Part shown: piece after piece, positions 185-60,600 of the stretch
How the letters are laid out: each line of letters begins with the position of its first letter
Position numbering within the stretch: the first letter of the stretch is position 1
NCBI GenBank assembly: GCA_012845835.1
Contig: JABAKD010000011.1
Location: 13,725,214-13,789,213 of the forward strand
Source: Undaria pinnatifida
Taxonomy: Eukaryota; Sar; Phaeophyceae; Laminariales; Alariaceae
Length of the DNA stretch: 64,000 bases
Direction: 5' to 3'
Notes under the pieces: generated by a model
The model's input: the letters and a program-made list of their open reading frames with translations, nothing else
The model's database searches: none
What the model was told of the DNA's origin: nothing
Position numbers and translations under genes: made by a program

Positions 185-3100
185 CTGCCGTGCCAACATC
201 CATCGGGAAAACAACGCGAGCAGAGGAGGAACCAAAGCAAAAATCAGACGTCACATCGACAAATATATATATATACCAGTAGGGATGTTGTACTCAATAG
301 CATGCATGGTCGTAGTCTTACAAAGCATAGAACCTCGCCATAGGAAATCCGATGCGAGTCGACGAGGGAAGAGAGAGCTAAAGTCTTCTCGCGATAAACA
401 TGAACGCGCGTACCGTAGTGGGGAGGGGGGAGAAAAGCCTGCTTAGTGACCCCGGATCTGAGTTAACATCTGGGGAGCGACAAGGAGAAAGAAAACGTGC
501 CAAGATAATCGAAGGGATGGGAAAACATAAAAAATGTACCGGTAAAAGCGAGGAGCCTAACAAAGAACAGATGCTACTATTGGTGTAGCATGCCTCATCG
601 ATAGCGCTAAAAAGGCAAGCATACTGCAACCGTTGTGTCGACCTCGGCCCAAGGTATAGACAGCTTTCAGTTATCACGTTGGAACAGACCCCACATTGCG
701 CTCGCGGCGAGCATTCCACCCTCCCGGCGAAACCCCTAAAGAGGCGTATTTACAATGTTGACGGTAATATTCAAATCCAAGACAGGCGTCCTTCGCAGCA
801 AGAGGATATTTGACAACGATCTAACATTGGCGTCCTTCCCAGCAAGATATGACGACAACAACACAACACCCGTCTCTTCGATAGCCAAGCCAAATATTCC
901 TCAGCGACGTTTTATGCAGAAAAAAACATACCAGGTACGACGATATTCCAACACCGTCGTCCACCCGATAGCTAGACATGACGACAACAAGTCAACAACC
1001 GTGTACTTGATAACCAAGGCAAACAATCCCATAGCTACGTATTATACCGAAAAAAAAGACAATTAACCCAACAGCGTCGGCCTTTTGACTGCCAGACGTG
1101 ACGATAACAATCAATCCAACACCCGTCCCGGGTCTTTGATAGCCGAAGGTGATGACCATCCTCCAACAGCGACATATTTTAGAAGCGGAACAAATCGACG
1201 GCGATACTCTAACAGCGGCATCCCTTGAAAGCCATACCACTTACACGCAACGACAGAACCCCCAAAAGTGTCGTTCTTTTTAAGGCAAATACGGCCATAA
1301 TATAACAGCGTGCAGGGGGACGGCCAGTTAGTCAGTCAGTCAGTCAGTCAGTCAGTCAGTCAGTCAACAGGGGTCAAACCATCAGTGTCATTCAGTCAGT
1401 CAGTCAGCCATTAGCATCTCTCGCACCTGCTCATCATCGTGGGCCAGCTGCAAAACAATCGTTAGCACGTGGTGCCCGAGGTCTAACGGTTTCATCAGGC
1501 TCGCCACCCCGACCAGACTCTCCCCAGCAGCCTGCCTCACGTCCGGATGAGAATCTCCCAAAAGCTTCGCCAACGTTGGCAGCACCACCTGGCCAAGTCA
1601 GCGTCATTACAAAGTGCGCGGCGCACTGATTCAGGCGTGCATGTAGCTTTTGTTGGTTTGTTTCACTTTTTTCCTGAGTTACTCTTCACGTCCAGAGTTG
1701 TTGAAGCATGTCTCGTGACCAAGGACTAGGAGATGGCGATGGGCTAGTGCTACAGCGTTTGAAGAGCGAATCTGCTAGGGTTAGCGTTCGCGCCAGCGTT
1801 GGTGTCTGCGATCCTGGGGGGGGGGGTGAGGGGCTCTACGTCAGCCCGGGGACACATCGAGGAGAGTGGGAATGTTTATAAGCCTCGAGGGTAGGGAGGG
1901 ATCCCCGCTTAACTTAACACACGTGCTATGAATACCAGTAGGGGGATGAAGGTATCACGTCCCTTCTCATTGGTCGAGCGTCAAGGGCTGCGGGCCCCTA
2001 TTCCAGGTTCCTAGAGCGTCGGCCGCCCGGCCACCGGAGAGCGATCGCCGGGCCGGTTCACAAAGGCCGAGGCCAAGACCAAGGGCAAGACCAAGGCCTA
2101 GGCAGTCCATGCCATGCCATGCCATACCATGCCATGCTACAAGAAAAATCTCCTCGCATCCACAACGATATTAAACGGATATTATTGTTGGACGAGGCTC
2201 GGGTAACGGCCGCCGCGTCCAGAAGGGTGGGCAACAGGCCGACATTGATCATCTCGCCGCATACCAACCATCGCAATCCCGACCCCAACTATCGCGATCT
2301 CGAAAATGACACGCCTCTTCGACTACGGGTCGGTGATACAGGCCAGACCAGGCCAACAACGTGTTGCAGAGTCACCGCCAAGAGCCGCTTAGCACCTCGG
2401 TCTACAGCCAACACCGGGCCTGCAGGAAATAAGCGTGCGCATTGACAACCACGGCGCCAGCCGGAGCGAATTGCCTTGTAAGTAATCTTGGCTGAAGCGC
2501 GGAACGAACCTAGGGCAACACAGTGTCGGGGTGTGTGTAATGCAAGAACAACTCAACGTGACACTCATTTGGGTTTGGTGCCGTGTTGGAAGGCGGTTTA
2601 CTTTGGCATGAAACCTTCAATGCAGGCAGCTTGGGGCGCCTGTACCGCAAGATATTTGTTCGCATTGTTTCTACTCCAGCCGAACCCCTGCCAAGCGCCA
2701 GCTTCTGCATGGTCTACTGCTGCAGCGCCGTCGAAACAGCACCCAGGTTTTGGTGGTGAAAAAATTGCACACTTCGAACAGAGCATATAGATCGTATAGA
2801 TCGTATAGATCATATAGATCATATGGATCATACATATCCTGTATCTGCCGTTTTGAGCTGTTCTGCAGGGTCTGTACATGAAAGAGTACACGTCCAACCC
2901 TGGAAACATTTGTCAGATCATGCAGATCGTACGCCCCCCACCCGGCAACATGAGCTAGACCATGCAGATCCTCCCAGAAACATCTAGAAGATCAGTAAGC
3001 GGGCATCGGTGATCTGCCCGACGTGCGAAAGGTTGCGTACCTCGATGATGAGCCTGTAGCCGGCCTCCTTTCCCGCAGACCTACAAAACCGAGCGATGTC

Positions 3101-6100
3101 ATCCAGCTGCTCCCCCAGGTGCTGCCGCACAACGTACTCAAGGTCCTGTCGCGGGAGGGGCGGGCGGAGGCAGACGCCGGGCCAAAACATAAGCGTCAGA
3201 TCCCCGTTTACATTATCAGCATGTGCCGCTCTAGCAGGGGGGGCGGGGGGGGGACGCAGACCCTGAGCAAACCCATAAGCGTCAGATACTCTTTACACTA
3301 TGCCCAGCACGAACCGTGCACAACGTACTCAAGGCCCTGTCAAGGCCCTGTCAGGATGGGGAGGGGGGGGGCGGCGGGGGGGGAGCGGGGGGGGGGGGGG
3401 CGAGGACAGCCCAATATGCGTCAGATCATCGTTATGACCTCATCAGCACGTGCCGCATTATTGAAGGCTTTTCGTTCTCGCTTGCTTCCCACCGACCACG
3501 ATTTCGAGCGCATCCGAGGAGTTGCTTGTGTTCAGGCGGGTTGCCCTCAGTAGCCAGCTCCGACCACCGCAAGTATCGATCGGGATAATGCTTGTCCTGT
3601 GATACGCTACGAACAGATGCGATGGCAGCAGCCGTTACTCAAGTAGCTGTGACACACAATCGCAACAACACACCTTCTTGGCCCTCGGATATACTAGATA
3701 GAACGAAAGAAAGCCGCCGGCTTACTGAATATCCCTCATGAGGGCATACACACCGCGTAGAGTGCGCGATCGGAGTAGCACGCACAGTTTGTAAATACGA
3801 GTTTCGACGAAAATGTTCGATCTCACAGCTGAAGTGTACCAGGTATTACGTTTTTAATAATAAAAACATGACTACAGTAATCTAGCGGCACGACGCTAAT
3901 CCTACGCTGGGAAGGGGTGCGAGAGTAGCAGTCATCCTACAAGTAGAGGTAGCGTACGATCACAATTGCAGCAGCAAACCGAGCAAGCACGGAGCGCCAA
4001 CCTACCGCAACTCCAAAGCTCATTGCAAGTTCACCGAAAGCTCATCGAAAGCTCATAGCGAGGTGACCGCAAGCTCATGGCAAGCTCATCGCAAGGTGAC
4101 CGAAAGCTCATGGCAAGCCCACGGCAAGCTCATCCCAAGCTCATCACGAGATCATCGCGAGCCTATCGCAAGCCCGTCGCAAGCCCACCGCTACGTCATC
4201 GCGAGGTCATCGTTGGTTATCGCAAGACGACCGCAAGAAAGCGGAAAAATAGAGATAGCAGGAGAAGACGGGGCAGTGCTCTACGCAGTCGCACGGCATC
4301 AAACGACCGGCCGTGTATTCAATCTTCTTCTGCTTACTTGACACCCAGCTAAGCTAAATAGCTCACTGTTGTCAATTCCATATTCCAAAATGATGTCTCC
4401 ATCGGCTTCCTGATCCACTCGACTACCAGAAATTATCTCAATTTTGCCCGTTCATTCTCAGAATGAAGCTTCAATCGCGATATCGCACCATGCAATCGCG
4501 ATATCGCGCCATGCAATCGAGAACGGCACGATACGACCCGCCGTCTAATCTGCACTTGACATGGAACCTCAATCGCATGTTACAGCCCAATTTGTCGATT
4601 TGTCAACGTTCTGTTGGGCGACCAAAATCTCACCTCGGCTAGCGGACCAATCAGAGGTACCACGGACTTGACCCATTGCTCAAAGCCAAAAGCTGTCAAG
4701 GTATAAATCAGCCCAAGTTGTCAACCACGATACTCAAAATGACGCCTCCATAATCAATGCGCCAGTCTCAATACTCAAAATGACGCCTCAATTCGCTTCC
4801 TTATTCCATCCATCATACGTGATCCAATTCTCAATCTCGGTTGTTGTCTGTGCGAGCAGAACTATCAGGCACCACCGAATTCACGGGTTGCTCAAAACCA
4901 CCAGCCGTCATGTTTCAATACTTAAAATAGTGCCTCAATCGGCTTCCTCCTCCCATCCACATCCAACTCCTATAAAGTGCCCCATTTGCCATTTGTCAAT
5001 TTTCGTATCTGGAACTCAAAATGAAGCCTCAACCCGCTTCCATATCCTATCCAATCGTAATCAAAGTGGTCAATCTGACAGTCTCCTTTCTTACCTCGGC
5101 GAGCGGACCAATCAGAGGCACCACCGACTTCACCGATTGCTCAAAGCCAACAGCCGCCATGGTGTCCGCCAGCATCTGCATCGACAGTAGGAGACACACA
5201 CAAGAGATTCATAATAAGACACGTAGTACTGGTACACCAATATATACCTGCGGTAGACACGGGAATTGCACCACGCTGTGTAATAAACCGCAAAGATAAC
5301 GGTCGGAACGAAGAGCGTGACAGATCCTCACCCTATACGAAAGGAAAGATGAACTACATACATCAAAACCAGACACGGGACCTTCAATTCCAACGGGGTT
5401 AGGCGGCAAAAATTGAACAGGCCACGCCATAGCGGTCGATAGAACGCCCCGGCAGCACGCCATGGTGGGATGGGTGCGAGGTTCGGGATATCGCGCATGA
5501 GCTGGCCTCAAAAGACAATCCATGGAGGCGTGACACGCGCAATATGTTCAGTGGGGTCATAGCAATATTCCACACATTGCGCAGATCACGATCTGCATCA
5601 TCTAGATCCTACATTTTCCGCAATGAGATGGTATACAAGAGCCGTGCCATACAGACCCCACCCGGCACCAAAACATGTGCGCAAGAGCCGTGTCGTGCAG
5701 ATCGCACACGGCACACATGATCTAGATCGTGCAGATCGTATAGAGCAGGGATATGCGTGTCCCCATAGATGTAGATCATCTAACCTGTCCGAGGTGTGAA
5801 TACAGCCCGAACAGGGGAAGCATGCTACGGTGGAGGGGTGCAGCATGTGTGTGTTCCGAGGCTCTTAACCCGATGAGGATGAGGAGCTCTATACCTCTAT
5901 GTACCTCATATACCAGGTATATTTTTCAGGAGAAAAACTGAAAGTGCAACCCGATGAAAACAGGCAAGGTACACAAAAAAAAAAATGGCAAAACGAAAAA
6001 GAGGAGTCCCAAAAAATTGGGTTAAGAAACCCCGTCGGTCAGAAAATACGTCAGGCAAAAAGAGGTACATTACATGAACCTCTATCGTAGCACGCGTCCC

Positions 6101-9100
6101 GCTCTATTATGCCAGGAACATATTAAAGAGTATGTGTATTTAACCCTTTGGGATCGAGAGGGTGATGAGTGGGTGACGGTTACAGAACCGACCACACGAC
6201 ACGATTACAGCCCGGGCTCCTGGGGTAGAGCATGTACTTGAAAAACAAGGTAGAGAAATATAGCACATGTCACGACACATGCGCAGTATAATGGTCCTTG
6301 GGTCCTGTTGAACGCTCCTTTCTAGATCGTTGATACTGCCAATCTGCGTCGCTGTAGCTGGGTCCCACGAATGGTCAATAGAGCTGACTAGAGTAGTATG
6401 ACTACAGTAGTATGACGACAGTAGTATGACTACAGCAGTAGTAGTATGGTAGTATGATAGGGCTCTTCCAGAAAGGCGGTGGTGTTCCAGGGCAACATGA
6501 CCGCCTTGTTGCGTATTGCTTATTGGGGGAAGCCGCCTTATTCACTCTAGGTTATGAGTACTGCTGTAGTTGCTGTAATGCAATCCCTTCCCCAGACGCG
6601 CCAAGCGATCTTGACCACCTTGTATCGGGATACCGCCTTACTCAGACCGCAGTATTGCCCCCCCCCCTACTGTGCACGCGCGGGCGGCAGCTCTTGTCTC
6701 CTAGGCAGAGACGAGGCCGACCTCATACACACGCCCATAACACACGCGGTATTAGAGGACTGAATCATGTAAGCTTGTCTGCAACTGAGATTTCAACAGA
6801 TCTGCCACACTCCCTGAATATCCTAGAGCACAAAACACGCCTCTTCTGCGCTGCTCTGATTCCATACTTGGACCATTAATTGTGAAAATGAGGTAACACA
6901 ACCGATCAAAAGCGTTAGATGGTCGCCGGTAGGTGCAGAGGAGTAGCATAACATGCGGCGGGTTTAATTGATAGGGCAGGGCAGGCTTGCAGCTTCATTG
7001 GCAGTACTACGGCAGTGCCAAGTACCGGGTACGGTATCGAATACTGCTGTGTGTAGGCATATCAATACCGGTATACATAGCGGCAGTGACTTAACGCTTA
7101 GTGGAAGAACATACCCGCCACGGTACGAGTACGGTAAAGATAGTAGTAGCAGGAGCGGCGACGACGTTGGCAGGATGCGAGGGTCGTACAAGACTCTTGC
7201 AAACGTCAAGAGGTGGAGAAGAACAAGGAAAAGGCAAAAACGCCGTGCAAGCGAAGACTCGTCGCATAAAGAAACGCCAAGATTCGCTTCATCGCCCATC
7301 ACTCATCACTTATCATTCATCACGGCCGGGGTGGATTGGGCTGGGATACTTATTTCTTCGTGTTTGTGCACGCCGGGCCACTTTCCGTGCCCGTGCGTAT
7401 ATACACGTAATTACTGCTACTGCTGTACCATATCATACCACACCACACCATACGATACCATACCATACGCCATATCGGGCATGATGATGCTGCTGTTCCG
7501 GGTTTCAAAGAAACTTAACCTCTTTGCTACTGGAAACCCGTTTTGGGGACAACATTACTTGGATTTAGTATAGGGAGGGGTTTGGGGGCTCCAAAGGGGT
7601 TAAGGATGCACGCAAAATCTAATTTTGCTACCTGGTACTCGTACAGAGTGTGTAAACGGTAAAGGAAGACTAAAGCTGCGGCTACGAGTACACGAGTACG
7701 CATACAAGATGAGCACAAAACAAAATCGCTCGTGAAAAGCGGTGGTGCGATTACCACGTATGCATCAGGGGTGTGCACTGACTATTGCCGGCGTATCACA
7801 GAATAGGTTCGTTGTTGCAGCGTGCAAGAACGAACGGGCAGTTTAATTGCTGACATGCCCTTTGCGCTTCGAATTGCCTCGAGTCTGCTCCATGCATGCC
7901 GGTACGGCGTACTTCATTCATATAAGTGGCAAAGTATTATACAAGATGAGACCTATATGTCTTATGAAAAAGATGCACTTCAGGGTTTTGTGGCTTGCTG
8001 TTCTCCGGCGGCCGAGCTTTTCTTCTCACGCTCTCGGCTGCGGGGCAAGCAAACCGCCCATCGGTCCATTACGATTCATGTCTTCATTCCCGCCGAGCTC
8101 TGTGGCGGTGTTCCGCCTCGCTGCTCAAGCCGAGCAGGTGCATGGGAAACCCCCACATATATTTTTAAATCGCTCTCTCGATTTTTGTATTCGCCCCGCT
8201 TTCCCGCCAGCCGTACAACATCATCAGTCCAATTGTTTTACCCATTATGCTGCCTGCGATGACGCAGCAGCAGCGGCGGCAGCAGCACTTCTTGTGGCAG
8301 CCACAGACGGTGCTTCTGTGTGTATGGGTCTGTGCTACTGTATATGAATGGGTGGGGTGCGTGTTGTCATAATCGAACAAAGCGATCAAGAAGATCGGTG
8401 TTCATTTTTGCAAAAGCAGCCGCTCAGCCAAGCAGCCACAAAAGCAGTATACATCCGTACAGCCGCAGTACAGCAGCAGCCGTACAACGGCAGTCGCGCT
8501 GCAAGCTCTCGCCGTTGTCAGCAGTCACGGTATATGTGCGTGTGGCAGACGCACTGCAGCAGGAAATCGAACCACGACAACATTAACATGTCCAACGCAA
8601 CAGTCGAATACACGTCGTCGGATCTCATACCAGGTATACGAAGCATTCAGCAGTAGCAAAATCAGTACTGTAGCTAAAGCCTGTACATATCGTTTGAACG
8701 CCCGACTTTCCCCTTTTCGACTTGCGAAGCTCCCGGGATATCAAGTCAACCCCATCCCGAAGGGGACCTTGTGTATATGTCATAAACGCTGCCACATTAG
8801 ACTAAGCGGTACCGCCCGTGCTATGTGTGCAGCGACGTGTATGAAACGGAACGGTGAGGGTGTTATTTTCAACTTGGTTATATTTATATTGTTTCTGCCG
8901 CTGCTGTGGTTGGCATTGTGCGGTGTGCTATCGTCGTTATCTTTCAACTTCTAGGACGCACCGTCCTGGACTTTGCAACCCCGTTTGTCGGCGCGCGTAT
9001 GACAGGGGGGTAGGGGGGGATTTCATCGGACATACTGTGAAGCACGAGACTATCTATCATACCGGCCGTGCTATTTCTCGCGAAACATGAATCCGTCGGA

Positions 9101-10213: not shown

Positions 10214-11091
10214 CCCTCGCCTGTAATTCCACGACGACGCGGCACACGCCGCGGATCAGGCTTGACGGTGGAAAGCACCTCTCCCAGGCAACGACTAGAA
10301 AGCGCTCCTCTCTCTGCTGCCGTCTATCGTACCTCCCTAGTCGATACCAGGGGATGATTTTACAGATGCCCCCGCCTGTTCCAAGCCAAGTTCAAATTGT
10401 ACAAACCCTTAAATAATTTTTGAAATATTTAAACTTCGGAAAAAAAATTAAAGTTTTTGAGAGTTCGTTTTATTATTATTTTGCGAACCTACTCTGTTGA
10501 AGCGAGAGATGCTCTGTTTGTTTGCTGTTGAAGCGAGAGATGCTCTGTTTGTTTGCTGCTGCTGCTGCTACTGCTGTGCTGCTATGTGCGCTGTGTTGCC
10601 GTGAATGACTGACACAACATGCTTATTATCTGCTGGCTAGTGCGCGGGATTGCTCAGTCTTTCTTTTGCGCAGAAGACTAGAGTTGCTTCTTCCTCGACA
10701 TTTGAGAACCGCCGACACAAAATCATTATTCCTGTTCGACTATACTTGACATTTTCGTCAATCCAACATCCAACACAAAAGCTGTGTGTGCAGCGTCGGT
10801 AGTGTATCTGGTATCTGGTATGTGGGGTTTATCTGGTATGTGTTCCGGTATATTTTTGTAATTTTTTCATTTCGATTTGCATTTTTTTCTCCCGTTTTTT
10901 GCGAATAGGGATACCCGGTTTCCCAGCCCGAAACCGCCACAGAGAATAATCGTACACCCCTTCCCCGTCCTGCTGAACCAACCTTTGGGGCCTTCCGCAA
11001 GAGATGACGGGAAAATCGCATCACGCCTCTTCTTCTCTCTGAACACGTGTGACACACCTCGCGCCAACAGCTGCAGGCAACCCATCAGGAC
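10214..11091. promoter_or_regulatory. Divergent intergenic region, probable bidirectional promoter
   Basis: These 878 bases separate the two start codons and contain no convincing exon. They hold an AT-rich stretch (about 10405-10485), a perfect 31-bp tandem duplication (10494-10555), a GCT run (10555-10575) and three TATCTGGTA-like units (10805-10845). I see no clear TATA box at a credible distance from either start. Promoter function is inferred from position only. Confidence 0.5.
10494..10555. repeat. Two perfect 31-bp direct repeats in the divergent promoter
   Basis: The unit begins CTGTTGAAGCGAGAGATGCT and ends GTTTGTTTG, and two copies abut exactly. A GCT microsatellite follows. The unit could hold a duplicated factor-binding site; that is inference. 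Confidence 0.8.
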
Positions 11092-11351: not shown

Positions 11352-14300
11352 GTGAGGCATTGCCCCGATCTTCGGTCTCTTTCCGTCCTCTTGGCATCGA
11401 CGCAAAGCAAAGCAAGCGGCTGCTTCCCTCCGTGCCCCCCTCCTCCTCTCGCACGGAAGAAGGTTTTTTTTTTCTTCATTCGAAACCCCGTCGCACCGTC
11501 ACACAGAGGCATGTAAAAATAATATGTAAGGAATTTCTTGGAGAGCTCTCTAATTCTTTTGATAGATCCAAGAATGGTTCAATCACAACTATTGAGCCTC
11601 ATTTCATGTCGTTTTGCGGCGTGGCGGGGTGGGTGGCGGGGGCATTCGCGGATGTTCCCCACGGCTTCCCGTTCCCCGTTAACAACAGAGAGGGGGTCAT
11701 TGGTCTTCCCAAGCGAAGGAGTTAGTGGCTACGTTGCCCCTCCGACTATCATGAGAATCTCTTTTGACTTGACGATCCACCATGTCCCTCTGCATGTATG
11801 TCTGGTACCTAAGGAGACGTAGAATGCCGAGCTTTTTCTTTTTTGTGGATCAAAAATATTCGATGGTCGCGAGCTACTGTTTTTTTTTTTTTTCATCCTC
11901 CGGCGGATGGGGAAGAATTAAGCTTTAGCTCACCACACTTCCGCGTATTTCCATACGCGTCGTGTGTCGATACCTCGTAGCGGTAGCACCCCAAGCCCAC
12001 CTAATAATATTGTTAGCAATGCAAGAAAGGGTTGTTGTGTTTCGTTTTTTTTTTTTCGTCGTTTCGTTCGTTTCGTTACTGCTCTCGCTTCTCACCGCCA
12101 CGTTTCTACTTTCTACGATTTTTTTGCGTGCGATGGATGCTTGCGGGTGGGGCGACCGACCAGAAAATGACGAAATCGTTTCGAAACTCTACGCGAGGCT
12201 GGCTGGCAATTGTGGTGGGTAGTTGTGGGTATGGGTACATATGATAGTCGGTGGGTAGTAGGCAGTGGTGTTGAATCAAAACCTCACCCAGGGTATCGTG
12301 TGTTGTTTGTGTTTTGCGATGTGTGTGTTGACTTCGTACCCAGTGCGAGTTCGTACCAGTAGAGTACGTACCATATTGGCCCTGGCCATCGTATTGCTCG
12401 AAGTACGCGCATTTTCGATGTTGACGCGATGATACGAGTACTGGAGCACATCGCCTGATATCGTCTGTGTGTCGGTGGCTTTCCTATTTCCGATGTTGCG
12501 CTGAACGACCGCAACGGAATGACTGCTTCATGCCCGAGTCCCGCATATTGCCGCCGTATCATATATGCCCTCTTCCTGTTTTAAGCAGAGTCGACCTCTC
12601 GTTGCATCCTTTTTCCCAAAAGCGTCATGGACAATCCAAGAGATAATAAATTTGTAAATCACAGCAGTAAGTAAATTCTCTCATATCTACAAGGGCTCCG
12701 CTCCGCGGGTCAGCCGCTACACTCGCGCAAGGAAGAATACAACACAATGTGTAGGGGGCGGAACTACTTGTGCAGAGCTGATTGCCCGGTGCTGTGCTGA
12801 GTGCTTGCTGGCGATGTCACTCTCAGTGCTTGCTGGCGATGTCACTCTCTGATCGACAGTATCGGTGAGCCTGATAATCTACAAAAACAAAACAAACATG
12901 AAGAGGACCGGGGGGATAATCAATCAAGAAAGCAAGAAGACAAGTACACGCGTACACGCGTACATACCGCCACCTGGTACCTGGGTATTTCGCATGGCAC
13001 CTGGTATTGTGTATGTACGAAAGAAAGAACAGCGCAGCCCAGCACAGTACCGCAGGGCACGGCACGGCACCGCCCGGTGCTGCGCTGGGCCTCTGAGCTA
13101 CAGTTGCTGAGCTGAGCCGGGAGTGTTCTGGTGTAATTCAACAAAATACCTGGTACGTACGCCTACTCTGCTACTGGCCTGGTTTACCGGGTGACAACAG
13201 TTTTTTGCTTCGATGACTGTCATGATTCGCCGGCCCATCGTAGACAGCAAGCAGCATACGGTTCATGACAGAGTAGTATAGTAGTAGTCCATGCGAGGGA
13301 GGGGAAGAAAGGACGACGCCTGAGACCACGGCTTGTTCGTGAGGCCGCTAAGCACCCTGTAAAAGGACGACGCCTGAGACCACGGCTTGTTCGTGAGGCC
13401 GCTAAGCACCCTGTATGGGTTGAAGTGGTACGGGTAGTCAGGGTAGCATTGTCATGAGTCTAGCGGTACAACCGCTGCGCACCGTGTGATGGATTCGCAC
13501 ATCTGTGTGTGCTCTTCCTCTTTACACCCATCTACACCCAGCACAACCAGTGTCCGTGCTGATGCCTCGTAGAGAGACGAGCTCCGTGGTCGCAAACTAC
13601 AAGACAGAGATACACATTGCAAACACAGCAAGGTGCTTTGGCCATGCAATGCCAAGGCAAAAATCACGCGGGCAAAAAACAAAAATATGCTAGCCAGCAA
13701 ACACACCAACCAATTGCAATTAAAACAGGGTGACGTGTGGTGTCGTACCATTCGGCACGATGTGAATACTTCATACTTTTCAATTGTCTTCATGATTTGT
13801 CTTCCTTATTTCATATAATATGCTTTTTCTCATTCTTCTGTACTGCAAAATACGCGATCGGAGCGTCACACGCAGTTTGCATGTATGATTTTGATCAGAA
13901 TCCTTTTTGCTGTAGTCGATCTCAAAGCTGTGAGTTTTTCTATGTTTTTTCTATCTTTTTAAATACTCACAGCTGACGTTTTTCAATATTTAGAAAATTC
14001 GTAATTGGGTGTGCTGGCTTGCAGTTTTTGCTCTTTGCCCGTGCTCATTGTGGTTGACATTTTTTTGCTCTTGTTTTTATCCCATTCTGTTTTTTTTTTG
14101 CTTTTTCAAGCATCAGCACGCACACTCGTTGTGCTGGATGGAGATGGTTGGAAATATCAGTTTAATGCGAACAACACACACGCTTGAACCAGCGCTTGGT
14201 CGGGACGAAACATATATCTTTCAACCGTGCAGTGCAGTAGTAGTGTTCCCTCTATAGTGCCTGTGTGTGCCAGCCGGAAAATACCGGCACTATACCGGCA

Positions 14301-36890: not shown

Positions 36891-36922
<32 letters not shown>

Positions 36923-36923
36923 C

Positions 36924-36954
<31 letters not shown>

Positions 36955-37282
36955 CGAAGTAGTAGTAATAGCACTAGTACTACTAGTACTAGTAATAGTA
37001 GCAGTACTATTACGGAGATCTATTGTTAACGGGATGAAATCACACCCACAAAAGGAAAGCATTGCCACCTTTCAGGCCTGCTCTCCTTCGCTACGACTGT
37101 GTTCGGTTGAGGCTCGGTATACCTGGTACGACTAGCCAACAAAATAAACGTGACTCATACGCTATTAAACAAAGTCGGGTGCTTTTCGCCCCCTTCGTTG
37201 TTCGGTAATAAATCAACAGGGGATCTCCGTAATAGTGCTACCAATACTAGTACTACAAGTAGTAGTAGTAGTGGCTGTAGTG

Positions 37283-37322
<40 letters not shown>

Positions 37323-46300: not shown

Positions 46301-49300
46301 ACAATGCTACCCTAAAATATCGAACCCGACCTATCCCCCCCCCCCCTTTACGCCATTTATGGTGAAACATTGCTCAGATGAATCACGCCGAAACAAGCCG
46401 GAGTATCTCGCAGCTTGCAAAGACCGGCCAGTATCAACCATTAAATTGATCGAACTCACAGCTGGCGTAGTTGAAACAAATTTGTAAGATATACCCGGTG
46501 TAATGGCCAAACAAGCCGGAGCATCACGCAGCTTGCGAAGATGAGAATCGGGCCTTGAATGCACCGAACTCACAGCTGTATGATACGTACAAATTGATTT
46601 TTTTTCATGACTTATACTGGTACCCGGTAGATAGTATTAAAACATGATGGACTCCATTAAAACCCCACTTTTCAATACCAGGAAACACCATCGCCCCCTG
46701 TGGTTTTGTGGTAAACCTCGTATCACCTGGTACAGCAGTATGGGTCCCCCAATAGTGCGGTATCCCGGTATAAGGCGGTATCCCGGTATGAGGCGGTATC
46801 CCGGTATGAGGCGGTATCCCGGTATAAGGCGGTATCCCGGTGTAAGGCGGTATCCCGATATAGGGCGGTCAAAATCGCTCGGCGTGACTGGGGCATTGCA
46901 CTCATGACCCGGATTGAATACGGCGGCTTCCCCCCACCGCCCAATAAGGCGGCCATGTTGCTTCTCTATACCACACCACACCACCGCCTTATACCGTGCT
47001 GGCGGGCTCCTACCGTAAAAAGCGTGTGTGCGATACGCACATTTCGACCCAAGTCGACGAGGACGAAAATCCTTGTTGGGCTAATAGTGAAGGCGTGCTC
47101 CGTTGTGGGGGGGGAGGTGGGGGCATGCTGTTACCCCGGATCTGAGTATACGAAAAGGCAGGGAGCTGGAGAATAAACTCGAAGATGGGGGAGGGGGGGG
47201 GGGGGGCAAATGTTTTTCCACTCTGAATCCTACTGGTTGGTGGGTGGGATACGGACATTATTCCACTCTTGACTCATACGAAGTGTGCGGTATGTTTCGC
47301 TGTGGGAGACTGGCGCCAAATGCTACTTGAGGGAGGCGTGTGACCATTTCAATAATACAGAAATGTTGCCGTGTTTTCGTCGCAGCTGATAGGTACCTGG
47401 TACAGTGTGGTAGGTGTCACGCTTGTAGGATATTTAGGATGTTGTATGAGCGACGGTTGTATATACCCGCGACGTTAGGTGTGGTGTTGGTTTGGTTTTG
47501 GTTGAGTTTCGTTTAGTCTAGTTTAGTCTAGTTTAGTCTAGTTTAGTCTAGTTCGGTTTTGTTTTCGTTGTAACAGTGGGGAAGGCGGGATAGACCGGAA
47601 GGATTAACATTTATCATCGGCGGGGGTGTCGGTGGGCAGGGTAGTCAAGCCGAGCGGGTAGAACGTAAAACATCAGGCATGCCCGAAGCTTTTTGCAGGC
47701 GCGAGCCTGGTGCATGTGCTAAAACTGTGTGTATATACACGAACTCTATTTCTTTTTTTCCATTCCTTCTGTTTTCTTTGCTTTTTTTGCTTCGTCTCCC
47801 TCCCTTTTCTTATCTCGGATAAGGAGCCTTATATCACCCCCTCCCGTCCCCACTCCGGTGCCTACCTTGTTTTTACCGCGAAAACGGTTCAACATTTTAT
47901 TCTCTCGTCGACTGTCGTCGATTTTGTCCCATAGGCGTCATGTGTGTGCCTAGTTTTATGGAAAATGTCTACTGGGGGGCGGCTCAAAGGCGCGAAATCG
48001 ACCTTGTGATGGCAATACGATGATTGTCACCAAACCACCGGGGACGCCGGTTTGGGCATACAGCAATGTTATACCCCCATCAAGACCACCCTATGCCAAG
48101 CCAATTAAGACACTTTTGTATGGTCATATATGTTGCTACTGCAACAATGATGCCATGATGCTATACTAATAAAAGAGTTCCAACTTTTTTCGTGACGAGC
48201 CGATTTACCTGGTCTAATCTCCCGAAATGCCTTGACCATTTTTGAGCCTCAAAACCCCTCCCGATGCTAATTCCAAGTAAACTGCACCCAAACATGGGTT
48301 TCCAGTTGCAAATGGCTTAAACCGGGTGGTCTCAAAACCGGTACACCACTGCTGTAGGTGAAGCGTTGTGCTTGCAACGCGCTGGACATTAGGCGTACCG
48401 TACAAAGTCGAAGTAACAGACCGCGGTTTAACCCCTTGAGTGACCGCCGCTTACAGTAAAACTAGTATATTGTGGCCATCCCTTGACACGCCAGACATGA
48501 TCCTTGACCGCCCCTTACTCTAAAACTAGCATATTGTGGCCATGCCTTGACGCGCCAAACATGGCCCTTGACTGGCCGCCACCTACACGAAGACTATTTT
48601 TTGGGCAGAAATCACAACTACCTATTTACCAAGTGTCAAACAACCAGCCGGATTCTTGCTCGGCCAGTCAAAATGAGCATGGAACCGACGCAGACCCGAC
48701 CAGAGCCCCCTCCCCCCCCCCCCCCCTCCCCCACCGCGTCCGCTGCTGTTCTCCGCCCTCATCAGCATGATCCGCAAGGCTATTGTGACGTCCGTGTTCC
48801 GCACAATGCAGCAGCACGATTCAGGGGCGTTTCCGGGGCGAGCGGGTGGAGGCGGCGGGCCCATGGGGGGAGGGTGGTCAGACGGCACCCTAGCTCACAC
48901 GACGAGCGCGGGCAGATATGCAGAGGTCGAGGCTGATGCTGCGTCGTGCGTGCTGTGGTGTACCGTGGCGCTCGGGTACTTGGTGTGCGGTCGTCCCAGG
49001 GAAGCGGTGAGTTTTATCCGTGTGTGAGGCGTCTTGGGCGATGGGGACAGGGGGAGGGGTACGTTGGAGGCGTGTGCGAGACGTGTTGGGTTTTAGGGGA
49101 TCGGGTAGTGTACGGTCGTCTCAGGAAAGCGGTGGGTTTTTTGCCGCGGCTTGTCTGCCTGCCTGCTTGCCTGCCTGCCTGCCTGCACACGCTGATTTCT
49201 GACGGCGTTTTCTTCTTCTTGCTCTAGGTGTTTGATTTTGCTTGATTTTTGTGTTCCTACGACCATGGTTTGTTTTAGTTTTTCGTGAGAGGCTTTCTTC

Positions 49301-49797: not shown

Positions 49798-49856
<59 letters not shown>

Positions 49857-51643
49857 CTTGTTTTTCTTGTTGTTGTTCTTGTTGTTCTTGTTGTTCTTGT
49901 TGTTCTGTTGCCTTTATTGCTAACGGAGAGTGCTTTCTCCGCTGTCGGTATGGTAATTGGTGTTGTTTTGTTTTGTCGTTGTCTCTGAACGACATTGCTC
50001 TGACCGCTGTTTTGCTGCGTTTTGTTGATTGTGGAACTATCTGAGAGTGGCCGCTGCTGTTGCCATAGAGTTTTTGTACGATACCTCTTCAACTAACTGA
50101 CTTAGAGTGCTCTGACCGCGGATGTTTTTTGTTTTGGTTGATGTCGCTTCTGAAACTTACGGAGAGTGCCGTGACCGCCTCCGTTGTTGTCGTTGTTGTT
50201 AATGTGTTGCTGATGTCTCCGAAGCTACAGGCGAGTGCTCTACCCGCTAATAGTTTTGCTTCGCTTTCTGTACTATCTGAGAGTGCTCTAACCGTTTTGT
50301 CGTTCATGTTTTATGTTCCCTCTGCCGGCTCTGCCTCTGTACACAGGTGGTAGGGTACGTGCAGCTCGCCCACGAGGCGTTGGCGCTCTGCGTCAAGAAT
50401 GCTTGCGCCGAAACAGCCAGGTGAGACTAGCTCGAGTTTCTACGTAAACGTCTTTTTTTCTGCGTTCACTCGTGTTTCTAAGATAACGTTTTTGTTTGTT
50501 GTACGTATATTAATAGTTGAAACTATATACCAGGTGCTCGTTTAGGCTGGTTTTTGTTGCGCTGTTGCCAAGCTTTTTAGCTTTTCCTATGATTGTTTTG
50601 AAGAATTCCCCCTCCTCTTTTTAACTTGGCTGCCCATGGGGTTTCAAGCCAACCACATCACGAAGGGGAGGCTTGCACACACGTATTTTTCCATTATTTT
50701 AGTTTGCGCCATTCCTATTACCGTAGTGTCCGGAAGATGTGAGGTCGTTGCATGTCCGGACGAATGTGGTTTACGAATTTATGGTGTTGATGGGTTTTTT
50801 TTTCTGTACCCGACGAGGAACATACGGAAGCGAGTTGCACCGTGCGGTTGCTGCACCCACGTTTTTTTCGAGAAAATTACTCGGAATTAATGTAGTGCGA
50901 AAATAATTGCAGCAGTGAAAGGGTTGCAACTAACGACTTAAGTCGACTGTTGATATTTATAATTGGCTGGCGTTAGTAGTCGACTAAAGTCAGGCGAGCG
51001 AAGCGAGTCAAAACAGAATCCCCCTGGCCGAGGGCCCCCGCTGGAGGATCTCGCCGTGGGGATCTCGCTGAAGGCGCCGCCGGAGGCAAGAAGTACGTGA
51101 TTTAGCACAAATGTACACTCAAAAAGCGTACCAGGTATGATAACTCGGCGAACTTTAGCCCTGGGTGTGATCACGAAACGGGTACGTTTTTGTTTGTTTC
51201 GTGATCACACCCAGAGCTAAATTTCGCCGATTTATCATGCGCTTTTTTAGTGTACAAATAAAATGTACCTGTTTCGTGATCACACCCAGAGCTAAAGTTC
51301 GCCGATTTTTCATACGCTTTTTGAGTGTACAGTTGTGGTAAGTCGCGTATTTTCTTCCTCCCGCGGCGCCTTCAGCGAGATACCTCCAGCGGTGTTTGTC
51401 TCATTTGATCAGACTTAACCGGGATGCACCAGCAATATGCACATGCCGCCCCCATTTGGAGACCTCTCAGTGGTATTACATTGTGTCGTAACGGTCAATA
51501 CTCGTGCGGCATGCCGTGGTACACCAGTAAAATAACACAAAAAAAACGCGTAGAAAATAGACTGGCATCTCTTGGACGACAGCAGCATAGAACACCATAG
51601 ATTTTTCATCGTGGGTGGTTCAAGAACGGTTTATAGTCAAGCC

Positions 51644-51678
<35 letters not shown>

Positions 51679-54600
51679 CGGCCGAGGCGGGGCTCCCTGA
51701 AGGCGCCGCCGGAGGTTAATGAATAATACTGATACTGGATTTGGCATTGTTTTACACTCGAAAGGTATAGGAACAGTCGGCCACGTTCAGCTCTGGGTTT
51801 GATAACAGAACAGGTATACATTTTTTAGTTCGTTTCAGTTGATCATACGTTACAGGGATGCACCATAAATATATAAATGTGGACAAGCGGTCCTCGTTCG
51901 GGAGTCTGTCACCGCATTTCGTTGTGTCGTTACGGTCAATACTACCCGTGAGGCATGCAGTAGCACACCACCAGTAAAACGACAAAAAAAAAGCGAGGAA
52001 AGTGGATTGGGATCTCTTCGATGACAGGCGACGACAGGAACATGTAGAAGAATATAATGTTTATCGTCGGGAATTCAAGAACAGTTCATAGTGGAGCCTA
52101 GGAACTCCCCCCCCCCCCCGTCCCGGCCGTGGAGCGGCCGCTGACACCGCCGCCGGAGGTTAAAAATGCTGGATTTAGCATTATTTTACACTCGAGGTAT
52201 GGGACAAATCGGCCAAGCTTAGCCCTTGGTGTGACCACGAAACAAGCACATTTTATTTAAAGTTCGTCTCAGTTTATCAGACGTTGTAGGGATGCACCAG
52301 AAATGTGGAAATGCCGTCTAAGTTTGGGGACCTCTCGCCGGTATTACGTTGTGTCGTTAGGGCAAGTGCTCGTGCGGCACGTAGTAGCACAACACCAGTA
52401 CAAGACGAGCACAAACGAAAACGCGGAAAATAGGCTGTAATCTCTTTTACGACAGGAGCATAGGGTATAGATTATTCATCGTCGGCGATTTAAGAACGGT
52501 TCGTAGTTGAGCTAGCAAATACCATGTCATGTCATGCCCTCCGTGGTATTAGATGAGTTACCGTTAATATTATTCTTTATAACGAATACACACAAAACCA
52601 TTATGTGCCCTATCATACAAGTTTTTATTTCTGAGCCATATGGTCTTCGCTGAATAGACACGCAGCTCAGAGCGGGCATCGCTCAAATACCCGAGCCAGA
52701 GGCGCTTACCATCCACAGGGCACTAAACATACTATTAATAAGGGGAGAGACGCAGCACTAACGGCACAGTCGATGGCGATCGGTTGATGCGGCATGAGTT
52801 GCAGAAGACCTCTCTGTGTGCTCGTAGCGTGGTAGTTCTACTTGGAGACGCCGGGAAATGCGCACCCCGTACCAATCACACCTTCCTACAACCAAGGAAA
52901 CCCCAATACGAAAAATAGTTGGATAGTTGGCCCCGCCGCAACTAACGATAATACCTACCGGGCGACTTACTATTATAGGTTGGAAGCTCTTGTCTCAATG
53001 TCAACCATTGCACGCATCAGACAAATCATAACTACTAGTGTAACCCCATGTCGTAATATAGATTTTACGGGTGGCAGGTAGAACCGCTGATTTGTATGAT
53101 CTGTAAAAATCCCGGATCATGTTCGCTGGATGGGATCTGTGTGACACGGCTCTTGCGCACATCTTGGCCGCGTGCGATCTTGAACGATACAGGTCTCACT
53201 AAACATAGCACAGTGTTGCTAGCGTAGCGTAGCAAGAAGTGGGAGGCATGCTAGGATAGAGGCGCACTTTTTTTTTTTTTTTTCGGAGGCTCCTCACTGA
53301 GCTCGATTACCTCTCTCGAAAACAAAAATTGGGGGGAAATGGGGGGAAATGAGAGTGCTACTCGATGAACAGTTGTAGGGCTATGTACGAGGTACCTGGT
53401 ATTCAACAAGAAATTGTTCCGACGAAAATGGCGAAATTCCAGCAATTTTGGGCTAAGGAGCCGCGTCAATCTTGACACAAATTCAGCCGAAACGGGTATT
53501 CTGGGACATAATACGAGGCGTATTGCAAACCCCTACATCTATGCGACCTGAAGCTGTTGAGAACCCTTTTGCGCCCCCCCCCACCCCCCACCCACCCCCT
53601 CGAACACTCCGCCCTCTCCTCACTGGTTGTACGACTTACAGGATATACATGATTAACTGGTGCATTCCTTCTAAATCCGTCAGATTTATCCCCTTGAAGG
53701 ATTGTTATAGTTTCCACGCACATTTTTGAGTTGCCCCGCCCTTCCCCCCCCCCCCACCCCCCCCACCGCTCCCTCTTGTTCAAATCCATGCCCCCACGCC
53801 CTGAAAACGCCGCCCTCCCCTCACTGGTTGTTCGACTTACAGGATACACTTGATAAACTGATGCACTTCGTTCCACAGCTGTCAGATTTTGTCCCCCTCA
53901 AAAACGAGTTTTATAGTTTCCGCGCACAGACTGACGAACATCACCCTGTTGACCCTGATAGCTACACTGTAGTTGTAAGGGGAGTCGCTGACCTATATCC
54001 TTACTGAATACACACAACCCGTAATACACGCAATCGGAGTATCACACGCAGCTTGCAAAGATGAGTTTCGACAAAATCTTCGATCTCACAGCTGGAGTGC
54101 TTTTTATTTTTATATTTTTCTGGGGAAAGGAAAGCGCTACTCGATCATGATCAGTTCCATGGCCTAATGAGTACCCCCGCCCCACCCCCCACCCCACCCC
54201 CCACCCCGCTTTCGTCCGCCCCTCCCTCCGGCTTGTGTTTGACGTCAACACATTCTTGACATCCCCGGCGCGGTGTCTGGACGATGGTCATGAATGCCTG
54301 GTACGCCGACCCGGTGTTTGTACGGTGGCTATGGATGTCTGTTTCCGCAGGGCGGTGACGGCAATGGCGCTCGTACAGAACTTCTTGGGCAACGAGGTAC
54401 GCCGACATTTTAAAATAATATCGTAGCCGCTTTGAGGCCCACATAGCAAGGGCGCCCATCCGTACTGGTGTTGGTGTTGTTGTTGGTGGTGGTGGTGGTG
54501 TTGGTGGTGGTGGTGTAAGGCGGTGGCCCTCTCGGCCTTACTGTCTTACCAAACACCAACAATGAAGCAGGGCACAAACGAACGAGCGAGTGAGCGGACA

Positions 54601-57600
54601 CAGACAGGGGCTGGGTCCGCCTTTCTCTTATTGAACCCATTCATTAGCCACGTGTGGTCATTAGGGATACAATTGTTTGAATTCGTGTGGTTTCATTTTC
54701 GCGGTGGAATTTGGGTTTGGGGTATCCCTCCGCTAAGACCACCCGGTTTAAGACTTTCCGGTGGATAAGACCAGAGAAGTGGGGCTTGCGATACTTGTAA
54801 GCGTCTACCAGTATCATAGCGTTAGCCCGCAGCAGCACAAGAAGGATCATGCTGCGCCCACCCCGTCCCTTACGAGCCTTTGCATGGCTGTGGCTCGGCG
54901 ACGAATTTAATGGTTGCTAACCTCCACTGGCCGATGCTGAAATCGTCATTTTTTGGTGAGCATTTACTCGGCCACCTCTATAGCCTGTAAGTAGACGTGT
55001 GAAGTCCAACCGACTCACAACGTCAATGTTTGCCGATGAAACGATCACTGGGATTGCGGTGGTGGGGAGTAAACACCACCCCTACCCACCCCTACTCTTG
55101 CCCGCCTCCGCCGTTAACTCCTTCATTGTTATTTTCCATGTTTCTTGGGCGCATTGTCGCCCGTTCAGAACTGCACCCACGTTTTTGGGGACACATTACT
55201 TGGAATTAATGTGGGTTACATTTTACAGTGGTGAAAGGGTTAGCGGCGACAAGACGTTAATAGCGTCTTTCGTTGTTCTGTTGTTTTTTTTTTCGCGGAT
55301 TTTTTCCGATTTGTTTGGGCTTGTCTTAACGGTGATGATGGCAGGTTCTGTTCGACAACTATGTGAAAATCGCGGCGGCTATCGTGAAGAGGCTGCCCGT
55401 CGAAGACGTCCCCATGGTGAGCTAGGGTGGGAGGCTAGGGTGCCGCTGTTCTCGATCATATGATGTGCATGCTTTGAGTGATGTGTGTGATGTGTGCGTC
55501 TTGTGTCGTGTTTGGTTTTGTATGATTTTCGCCCCTGTCGAAGATGTCCCCGCATTGACCGTGAATGGGAGGTCCCCATCCGCTGGATGAAAGAATATAA
55601 AATAAAAAATAAAGATCTAGGCTATCGTTTTTCGTATCTTCCGATAATATGGCATGATTTGAATATGCTGGTAAGAGCTTTGTTTAACGGTTTTGTGCGA
55701 GGACGCTTTTTTTTTGCCTGTTACAAGATGTCCTCGCGGTAGGCTTAGTTGAGAGGGTAGGCCTCCGCTCTTCTTCGTAGGACGCGATTTGCATGCACAC
55801 TTGTAACGTCTCATGTAATACCGCTTTTCACGAACGATGGACGTTGTGAGTGATGCGGTGCACTCGTGCTCCCGCGTTAATGCGGTCCCCTTTAGTGCGA
55901 TGCCCCGGTTTAGTGCCATCCGCTATCTTCCCGTGGGTCGGACGGTGTCAGGGTGACTCGGCCCGACCCGCAATGTTTGAAAACCTTCTGATCCGTCTCC
56001 ACTCGACCCGTGAGATATCCGACACTTGCTGACCCGACCCGACTCGACCTGCGGATGTTTGATGTACCATGGTACCTCTTAACCCTTAGTTAGGGCCGGG
56101 TGATGACCTTGCTCGCCCTATACAGTGCTATTAGTAGTGTTGTGCACCAATCCGGGATAGTGCGGGGTCCCACTTTAGTGCTACTTTAGTGCGGGCATCG
56201 TCGTCTGGAAAGGCAAAGACACCGCACCAATGAGGAACCACGACTGTTGCCGTACTCACACAAGTTCGGACTTTGTGAGACTTCCAGCTTCAGTGCCATC
56301 GACAACATCATTTTGTTGACACGCCAGTGCGAAAGATCGACCGCGCCGCACAGGCGATTGTGGGGTGAACATCCATGTTTTTCCACCGGGGGGGGGAGGG
56401 GGCGGATATATTTATATCTATATATATATATGTATTCGAATCAGTCTCCTTCCTTCATCCGTAGTACTCGGAGCAGGTGCCAACATGCCGTCGCTTGGTG
56501 TAAGGTGTTCCCGGCCTCTCCCGTCTTCTCTTCGGTTATCTCGGCGAACCCTATAATTGATGGTGCCTGCCAGAGCGAGGCCCGCTCGTTGTAGTACTGC
56601 CTCTGAGGTGGAAACCCCCGGAAGAGATGCTGAGATATTTCCGTGCATCGGTGTTGTGATGATTGAACATATGTGTAGAGTCTGTTTTTCTTTACCCTTG
56701 TGGGAGTTGATTGTATATTGATCATAGTATACGGGCCCAAAAAGCGACGAGCCAGCGCGATCTCAGCAAAAACGTCTAGGAAAAGCTTGAGGCAATCCGA
56801 GTGTCGTGTCGCCATGCCTCACGCTTTGCTTGCCTCACGGTTATCACCGCTTCCTGCGTTGCGTTTCAACACGTTTCCTGCAGCAGCGGCTCGGGTTGCT
56901 TCATGCGGCCGATGCTTTAATCGGCATTTTTTTTTTCCGTGAATTTTTTGGTGTTAAGTCCCAGCAAAGAGAATGTTAATATTAACCGTTTTGGAGGTGC
57001 TCTATCGTTTTTGGCGACACACTACTTGGAATTAGTGTGGGACTCTTTTTTGCAGTTCTAAAGGGTTATTCGCTTCAGAACTGCACCCGTGTTTTTGACG
57101 CTACAGTATGATACGTATGATACGGGTCCCCCAGTAAAGGCGGTGGTGTGGTATGGTATAGAAAGCAATATGGCCGCCTCATTGGGGAAGCCGCCTTATT
57201 CAATATTCAATCCGGGTTATGAGTGCGATTCCTCTGTCGCTCCAAGCGAGCTTTGACGCCTTATATCGAGATACCGCCTTATATAGGGACACCGCCTTGT
57301 ATAGGGATACCGCACTGTTGGCGGACCCCTACTGCTGTAGTCGGTAGTAAATTAGTGTTGGCTCGTTTTGGCAGCAGTGTTTGGGGTGAAGGAACGCGGT
57401 CACTATGATAACGTGTATCCCCATATACTTTAATACCTCGTAGAATTGTGACTTGCAACAAAAAAAATGCACCCCTAGCGGTGTCTCTAAAGCCATGCAC
57501 CCCTATTTAATACAATATTGCTACTACTGTTTTTAAATAGCAGTATGCCGATACTGAGTGTACCTGGTACCAGGTCCCAACCCAACCCAACCATAAGCCT

Positions 57601-60600
57601 AAGGCGTACCAGATAACTTATGACAGTCCCAAAATAATACGGCGTGGGATTAGGGTGTGTGCATAAAATACACTATTTTGGGTAGGGATGCATGACTCAT
57701 ATGGCTTATGGCTTATGGCTTATATACTTAGGGTTAGGCGTAGGGTTAGGGGTACGATTAGGGGTAGGGGTAGGGGTAGGATTAGATAGGGGTTTACCAG
57801 CGTATATATTTTTTGCACTGAATCGGCTGGCTTGATACTAATAGTCGCCGACATATTAATGATTATTATCAGCTTCGACTTCGGTATGTGGTTGGCTTGA
57901 AATACTGGGCGGGTGGTAAGGGGGGGGGTGTCTCTTGTAGTAGGGGGGACACAACTCTCGTCAAAACTAAAGAAAAAACAATTATTAATAACCACCGCGC
58001 AAGTAACCCGGCAAATAACACCGACTGTGACTATTAATACTCGTACATGGCTTACCAGGCACCAGGTAGTCTACAAGGTTTCCCTCGGGGATGTATGGTT
58101 GGTTGGTTGGCTTCAAATCCCGCGAGTGTCGCGGGTTAACGCCGTTACAGCTGGAAAGCCGTTTTGGGAAAAAAAATACTTGGATTTAGCATGGGGAGGG
58201 GTTTGGGGGCTCTGAAGGGGTTAAACAAGGGAATAGAACTCGCATAACCACTGACGGAAGGATAATTAGCCACCAACAAGGTGACTAACGCCGACAAGCC
58301 GTATTAATACTTGGTCATAGTACTAAATATTATAGCCCATACGAGCTTAAGGCTTAGTCTACAGGGCTTTCCTTCGGGGCGTTGGCTTCAAATGCCGCGA
58401 ATTTCGCGAGTTGAAAAGGGGGACGAACCTGGTGTAAAAATAGAAGACAAAACAATAGGCCATCGCGCAAGTAACCCGGAAACTAACGCCGACTATAGTT
58501 AAATAATAGCACAAACGGATTTATGGCTCAAATCTACAAGGTTCCCCTGCGGGATGTTGGCTTCAAATCCCGAGGGGGGGTGACGCAAGCTGAAAAGAGG
58601 GAGAAAACGCGTGTGAAAACTAGAGGAGTAACAATTAGCCACCGCGCAAGTAACATATTATTGACAAGGGTATACACGCACACCCACCCCGTAACACGCG
58701 CGATCGAAGTATCACTGGTCACACGCAGCTTGCAAAGCTGAGTTTTGACCCAAAAACCTTTTTGGTCGATCTCACAGCTGTAGTGTATGTTTTCATTTTT
58801 TTTCGTTATTATATAATGCAGTAGTAGCCCAAACGAGTTTATAGTTCGTCTACAGCAGTTAGTTGCTCGCAATGATGTTGTGGACTTGTGTGTCTGTTCA
58901 CCTGACTGGCGCGTTTTATGGACGTGTGGTGTTAATAGCTATCAAAGTGTTAAAACTAGGAGAAAGAAAAAAGTCGGTTAGTCGGCTAGTTGGTTTTTAC
59001 TCCCGCCACCCGATTATTACCCACAGTAGCATATTAAAATGAAGTAAGTCGGTTATGAATAGTTGGTTTTTCACTCCACCCCAAGTATATCTACAGGTGA
59101 TAAGTACAGTAACAACTCGCAGTCCTATACCAGGTATACAATTTTCCGTTGGCGTCTGTTTTATATTTCTGGCATTTTTCTCGATTCTCGCAGGCAGGAC
59201 ATGTCTAACATATTGCTGTTGTTCAAAGCGTTTCGTACCTTGCTGGTATCATGTATTTAGTTACTCATTTTGTCTCGTGTATTCTAACTTTGTTTTTTTC
59301 ATGTATTCGTGTATTTTTTTCGGTGCCTGCAGGACTTGACGAACACCCTGCTGTTCTTCAAGGCGTGCGACATGTTCGTCGGCAACTTCCGCTTCGGGAG
59401 TGGGCCTGTGCGCGAGACGATGGAGGCTATGGCTAGCGAGCAAAACGCTACCCTCCCCAAAAAGGTATCCTAACCTCTCGCAAGTAATCCTACTACTACT
59501 AGTAGTAGTGGTGGTAGCAGTAGTAGTACTAGTAGTAGTACTATTAATAGTAGTAGTACTAGTAGTACCAGTAGTAGTAGTGGTACTACTAGATTAACTA
59601 GTACTAGTAGTACTAGTATTAGTAGTAGATGCTACTGTGGTAGTAGATGCTAGTAGTATGATAGTTACTAGTAGATGCTACTGTAGTAGTAGATGCTAGT
59701 AGTATGATGGAGCCGGTGCCCCCGGTGGTTTAACGGCAAACCTCGAACACTACTAACGTCGAGTCAGGGGTTCCATTCTCGGTATGGTATGGAGATTTGC
59801 ATTTTCTAGAGACACGGACTGCCGAGAGAGCTTTGCAGTGTGGGTAAGCACAATTCGACGCGAGTCGACGAGGGAAGAAAAAAGTGTTGAATTATTTTTG
59901 AGAGAAGAATGATAAAAATGATGAAAATGATGAAGACGAAGGCGCGTGCCGTGGTAGTGAGGGGGGAAGAAGAGCCTGGTTAGACCCTGGGTCTGAGTTA
60001 CTCACGTCTAAGGAGTTAGAGGAGAAAAACATGTGCGAAAATAATAGATGGGATGAGAAAGAAAAAATACACGAAGAAGTGTAGTATAGTCCACCCACCC
60101 ATCCATCCATCCACTCATGTCTATCATCTCCCTCTCTCCCGCTCGCGGTCGTCCATACACCCACCCACCCAGTAACAAACCCACCAACAAACCCACCCGT
60201 TCATCTCTAACTCTCCCTCCCGCTCCGTTCCACCCCTCCTCCCCGCCTCCCACCACCCCTGGCAGAGGCCGACGATCCTCGCTCAGCAAGACCTCTGCCG
60301 GTGGATGCTGGAGACAGACACTCGCCTGGGAGCGTGCTTCAACCAGGACATGTTTGACGCTAACGTGTTTGACGTTAATGGCGAGTGCGTCTCAACCCCC
60401 ATGTCCTGCGCTCATCAGGACAAGGCCACGCCCTATGTCCCGGGCACGAACGTAGTCTACGATGACTCCCAGGGAAGAGGGGGGTTCGGCTCGGATGGGA
60501 CGGACACGAGGATCGAGAGGCTTGGCCCGTTCGTGGAAGAAGAGGAGGAGGATGGGGGCATTATGGGTGGGGAGCCGCCCCCCCCCGGGAAGATGAGCAG

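Follow-up and report, generated by a model that had tools for sequence, protein, structure and literature searches.

TACCWGGTA in the genome of Undaria pinnatifida: dispersed 7-bp insertions at TA, probably scars of transposon excision

The nine-base near-palindrome TACCWGGTA (W, A or T) occurs throughout the genome of the brown alga Undaria pinnatifida far more often than expected, and most of its copies are probably excision scars left by a cut-and-paste transposon of the Tc1/mariner kind, a putative source element with CCAGG ends that targets TA. The analysis starts from a stretch of 64,000 nucleotides, here called the window, which comprises bases 13,725,214-13,789,213 of contig 13 in an assembly of 511,146,479 bases and 68 contigs. 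Where filled and empty versions of a site can be compared, the word fits a 7-bp insertion at TA that leaves the TA duplicated.

The window contains 24 exact copies, spanning positions 929-59136, against a mean of 0.56 and a maximum of 3 in 100 dinucleotide-preserving shuffles. The over-representation claimed in the first-pass annotation is borne out, at ~43-fold. Among words of the form TA-N5-TA with at least four copies in the window, TACCWGGTA stands well apart, with 24 copies where a second-order Markov model expects 0.54; next come TAAGCCATA (5 against 0.33) and TACCAGATA (7 against 0.51). When 40 kb from the same genome (L069-L072) are added, 34 copies are found in 104 kb, half of them (17) centred on A and half (17) on T; a further 4 words carry C or G there, against 1.0 expected. 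Both TA and CCWGG are required, because 15 alternative symmetric flanks of CCWGG and 15 alternative words of the form TA-xyWy'x'-TA remain at 0-3 copies each in these 104 kb.

The excess extends to the whole assembly, with 85,263 copies against 3,475 of the reversed word, a ratio of ~25-fold and a density of one copy per 6.0 kb; the window is ~2.2 times as dense. The background is a single control, the word read backwards, and relative to it the excess amounts to 81,788 exact copies. A genome-wide count near expectation, named in the first-pass annotation as one of two outcomes that would refute its interpretation, was not seen. The two centres are about equally common here too: by hand count, the first 100 entries in the genome-wide list, which all come from contig 1, comprise 48 with CCAGG and 52 with CCTGG, while the plus strand of the window has 14 and 10, respectively.

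The nature of the word is clearest from paralogous copies of the DNA around it. The comparison covered 39 sites in 134,942 bases (the window and L069-L082). Four have a paralogue that can be read as empty, and all four fit a 7-bp insertion at TA with the TA duplicated, in agreement with what the first-pass annotation had proposed for every copy. The cleanest case, in L069, is a 190-bp unit present three times in tandem, where two copies read GTGGGATAAGTGCG-TA-CGTTGGTG and the third GTGGGATAAGTGCG-TACCTGGTA-CGTTGGTG (GCG-TA-CGT versus GCG-TACCTGGTA-CGT); once the insert is collapsed, the flanks are 97.5% identical over 160 bp and 96.9% over 128 bp. Site 32082 reads AAACA-TACCAGGTA-ATAAAATGA, and its counterpart at 30406, 98.7% identical, reads AAACA-TA-ATAAAATGA. 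Site 51129 lies in an inverted-repeat family with two empty arms, 88% and 80% identical, one carrying TA and the other CA at the site; a third arm (68%) is without the insert and too diverged to read, and a fourth aligned with other gaps. At site 3837, other copies of the repeat read GTG-TA-TTTT and the copy in L072 GTG-CA-TTTT, so that CA replaces TA in one empty copy each for 51129 and 3837. Four weak paralogues of site 28550 (75-78% identical) include one, in L072, that reads as an empty TA and three that align with gaps. For the other 33 of the 39 sites, no insert-free paralogue was found within the thresholds.

The sites in the window and the corresponding empty positions are as follows, with no strand assigned.

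929..937, TACCAGGTA; alignment with its paralogous arm ambiguous, site not counted as readable
3837..3845, TACCAGGTA; close to a repeat end, sibling copies without the insert, 3' flank diverged
5911..5919, TACCAGGTA
7629..7637, TACCTGGTA
8628..8636, TACCAGGTA
13147..13155, TACCTGGTA
15056..15064, TACCTGGTA
18653..18661, TACCAGGTA
18767..18775, TACCAGGTA
25408..25416, TACCAGGTA
28550..28558, TACCAGGTA; weak paralogues, not among the readable sites
31489..31497, TACCAGGTA
32082..32090, TACCAGGTA; near-identical empty counterpart at 30406
33486..33494, TACCTGGTA
37120..37128, TACCTGGTA
39531..39539, TACCAGGTA
43453..43461, TACCTGGTA; opens a three-site cluster, 43453-43479
43464..43472, TACCAGGTA; has a TA in common with site 43471
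43471..43479, TACCTGGTA; nested with site 43464
47394..47402, TACCTGGTA
51129..51137, TACCAGGTA; in an inverted-repeat arm, partner arm empty
53393..53401, TACCTGGTA
57561..57569, TACCTGGTA
59128..59136, TACCAGGTA
30406..30407, single TA without insert, in the counterpart (98.7% identical) of the 32082 flank
51313..51314, single TA without insert, in the inverted partner of the arm that holds 51129
37640..37641, TA at the equivalent position of a repeat copy that resembles the 3837 flank; the alignment stops there

The insertions show a target preference. The context R-TA-Y (purine-TA-pyrimidine) is found at 28 of 36 sites as against 33% of the 6,638 TAs in the window and L069-L074 (binomial p = 5e-8), and the flanks of these 36 sites have nothing in common beyond it and a weaker pyrimidine ahead of it. 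A scar is itself a good target, since it starts with R-TA-C and ends with G-TA-Y. Sites that share a TA, and are thus spaced by 7 bp, make up four of the 163 neighbour gaps among the genome-wide places listed, against 0.03 expected. A single duplication accounts for two of these gaps, leaving three independent events, and a tandem duplication of 7 bp would give the same pattern. Such pairs are as expected if scars serve as targets.

These features can be brought together by one scheme. The putative element, with tips CCAGG...CCTGG, would insert at a TA, duplicating it, and would later leave. Its transposase would cut one strand five nucleotides inside each end, so that each flank would retain the 3' overhang 5'-CCAGG. 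The two overhangs would pair at four of their five positions and be ligated, with an A·A mismatch at the centre, and repair of the mismatch either way would give TA-CCAGG-TA (TACCAGGTA) or TA-CCTGG-TA (TACCTGGTA) in equal numbers. The W at the centre would thus arise because the mismatch resolves in either direction, and the centres counted above (17:17 in 104 kb, 48:52 on contig 1, 14:10 in the window) match this prediction. The uniformity of the scars would also follow from an overhang that is self-complementary, and a few elements, leaving one scar per jump, could make many. What we infer from the scars is the element that left, with its ends, the cut 5 nt inside them, the mismatch step and the production of many scars by few elements.

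The numbers of decayed copies bear on the age of the process. With up to one mismatch allowed, the genome holds 255,019 copies of the word and 76,145 of the reversed word, a one-mismatch excess of 97,086, which is 1.19 times the exact excess; a simple estimate for constant production with neutral decay predicts ~1.13. A recent burst is disfavoured because it would leave few one-mismatch copies. The ratio, obtained with one control word and with decayed copies and variant scars indistinguishable, speaks for production of the word over a long period. Not every copy is a separate event. Around ~3,097,396 and ~3,132,293 on contig 1, ~35 kb apart, identical series of TACCWGGTA spacings indicate a segmental duplication; duplication has, therefore, multiplied some of the scars, and the copy number is not the number of independent events.

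The proposal of the first-pass annotation that the words are excision footprints thus stands in part: it accounts for the TA duplication, the palindrome, the A or T centre and the R-TA-Y context, but its source is inferred, and an intact CCAGG-ended element was not found. Several observations weigh against it. The window holds no TA-CCAGG...CCTGG-TA element with longer inverted ends that we could find, nor do the loci encoding DDE_3 transposases described below, and no occupied allele was seen at any scar site examined. Readable empty copies are limited to four sites, and of these, the similarity between 32082 and 30406 ends within a few bases beyond the site, while the 3' flank of 3837 is diverged, with several alignments stopping at the TA. 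The 5-bp length and the uniformity of the scars are also unusual beside the Tc1/mariner footprints described in the excerpts of published work used here. As regards the missing element, the sequence read for it was ~135 kb of 511 Mb, so that a family numbering a few hundred copies could easily be missed as the source.

Two structures in the window were considered as source elements and rejected. The pair of ends at 18953-21775 (TA-CCAGGGTCAACAG, 23/25 bases matching) is not an intact element, as the inverted similarity continues past the TA, to 18806-21915, and other copies show TCAGGG, TCTGGG or CGCCAGGG at that end. The region 18806-21915 is a ~3.1-kb inverted structure whose arms derive from a dispersed repeat with GCAAAGATGAG...CTCACAGCTGGAGTG. 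The second candidate, at 61448-61684 with TA-CCAGATA ends, was set aside as a CCAG-ended element since the alignments of many genome copies begin with base 1 of the query, eight bases outside the TA, and inverted matches of the first 29 bases also start there. It belongs to an old repeat family (61440-61700), of which 40 of 450 first-look genome candidates were scored, mostly 72-78% identical.

A search of the genome with the PF13358 (DDE_3) profile gave eight matches, seven of them above the cut-off, which form one related group (L075-L082, on contigs 18, 36, 55, 30, 29, 19, 13 and 22). Those at L075-L078 are elements of ~1.75 kb flanked by TA, with ends TGGTCCGTGCACAAC, and the four copies are ~99% identical; coding relatives have open frames of 767-771 amino acids. 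They resemble the inferred source of the scars in duplicating TA, and they have inverted ends and recent copies. They were rejected as the source itself: their tips are TGGTCC/GGACCA, and since these lack CCAGG, the elements cannot leave CCWGG. They do show that TA-target elements have moved recently in this genome, which is consistent with the excision scheme. The transposase predicted at L080 (1-2016) shares 97% identity, across 85% of its length, with a protein from Pylaiella littoralis, which belongs to a different order of brown algae, and 72% with an Ectocarpus protein. Among its 16 matches the only named relatives are Pylaiella, Ectocarpus and Scytosiphon. Judged from protein similarity, recent horizontal transfer or contamination is possible.

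Direct micro-insertion, in which CCWGG and a TA are written at a TA without any long intermediate, for instance by end-joining or template-copying where a TA-directed nuclease or transposase has broken the DNA, is the alternative that survives best, though we consider it unlikely. It would sit well with the lack of an intact element in the window or the DDE_3 loci and with the fact that only the 7-bp insertions themselves are seen; the scars are, moreover, more uniform than the variable footprints of Stowaway elements, as excerpted (PMC1925063). Against it, by itself it predicts neither a near-palindrome with equal A and T centres nor an R-TA-Y target, and, to our knowledge, no process of this kind has been described.

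It is less probable still that the scars come from a TA-target element outside Tc1/mariner that uses the same overhang chemistry. Candidates are pogo, CACTA elements with a 2-bp duplication, ISL2EU and an undescribed superfamily. A scar does not tell the superfamily of its maker, and 5 bp falls outside the lengths quoted for Tc1/mariner in the papers cited. The word could also be a functional motif, such as the binding site of a protein, that selection maintains or spreads or that mobile repeats carry along. Its palindromic form, common among binding sites, would suit this reading, but the reading is already disfavoured and highly improbable, since the flanks of the 36 sites share so little, near-identical repeat copies differ by exactly 7 bp present or absent, and one-mismatch copies are as frequent as under neutral decay.

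Some related words may belong to the same phenomenon. In the 104 kb, TACCAGTA with its complement TACTGGTA occurs 16 times against 3.6 expected and TACCGGTA nine times against 1.8, 4- to 5-fold excesses, whereas TACAGGTA and TACCTGTA together (2 against 4.6) show none. TACCAGATA and TATCTGGTA together have seven copies against 0.9, three of the seven within 10805-10838. TACCAGTA/TACTGGTA and TACCGGTA may be what a related element with an overhang of 4 nt leaves behind; as a speculation, a second family with the overhang CCAG would yield CCAG, CTGG, CCGG and CTAG.

The word was also looked for in other DNA. A pattern scan of IMG/VR gave 57 stretches, and the word was densest in one piece of 1.3 kb and in those stretches that contain tandem arrays; the TAG repeats of the Undaria genome were found in none of the 57. 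A search of genome contigs with a repeat from the window gave one contig (L058), assigned to the metagenome-assembled genome of an 'uncultured Pleurocapsa' and without any TACCNGGTA. It carries a 61-bp stretch 92% identical to the dispersed repeat of the window, and may be algal contamination. The word is not counted as enriched in the Pleurocapsa genome: there are 25 copies in 4.0 Mb against 3 of the reversed word, but ~30 are expected on a rough estimate at ~39% G+C.

Elsewhere in the window, an exon-like stretch at 60176-60658 has four protein matches, at 100%, 77%, 73% and 44% (Laminaria digitata). Tandem arrays lie at 34375-34557, 46757-46869, 36884-37006 and 59500-59628, and comprise a 26-bp unit repeated seven times, the 18-bp unit GCGGTATCCCGGTATAAG repeated six times and long TAG runs.

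The copy number of a transposon records only the elements that have stayed. Here it may be possible to count those that left, since each excision would leave one near-identical scar and there are tens of thousands of scars, and the decay series (exact copies, then those with one mismatch) could allow activity to be estimated through time. If the scars are what we propose, cut-and-paste elements add >0.5 Mb to the genome in 7-bp pieces (81,788 excess copies of 7 bp each), which would be expected to escape ordinary repeat annotation, and the scars would serve as markers in populations, with the empty TA known to be ancestral. A more novel reading, which we put forward tentatively, as possible but doubtful, is that this alga has a TA-directed process whose product is always the same near-palindrome of 5 bp. 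It would work either by way of a transposon whose 5-nt overhang is self-complementary and whose scars are of near-perfect fidelity, or without a long intermediate, and the ~82,000 copies above background would then be a genome-wide count of past events.

A literature search found nothing on TACCWGGTA, on footprints in brown algae or on mariner elements with Undaria and Ectocarpus, and those brown-algal terms that were tried are absent from PMC8533490. Comparison is made with footprints from other organisms, as given in excerpts of the papers cited. In Sleeping Beauty and mariner, excision begins with a nick 3 nt within the element, followed by one at the tip, so that 3-nt 3' overhangs stay on the flanks, and the footprint is identical to these overhangs (PMC7827188). 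The scars described here are alike in their insertion at TA and the duplication of TA, and would likewise be formed from overhangs, but of a putative 5 nt where those elements have 3 nt. Should an element confirm it, a self-complementary overhang of this length would be a new variation on the cut that TA transposons make. The earlier remark that known Tc1/mariner footprints are shorter agrees with the 2-4 bp reported for them (PMC7913693), a range rather than a strict definition and one outside which 5 bp between duplicated TAs falls, and with the 0-4 bp of Passer (PMC9976928). Passer and ZB (0-3 bp; PMC7913693) likewise leave short scars as TA-target cut-and-paste elements, but of mixed lengths. 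Stowaway and Osmar5 in grasses leave several kinds of 1-4 bp fragments of terminal inverted repeat between duplicated TAs at intron sites (PMC1925063), where the genome described here has one uniform 5-bp core in 85,263 copies in a single assembly. The scars thus behave like known footprints, yet are longer, uniform and very numerous, and are not filed here under any named family.

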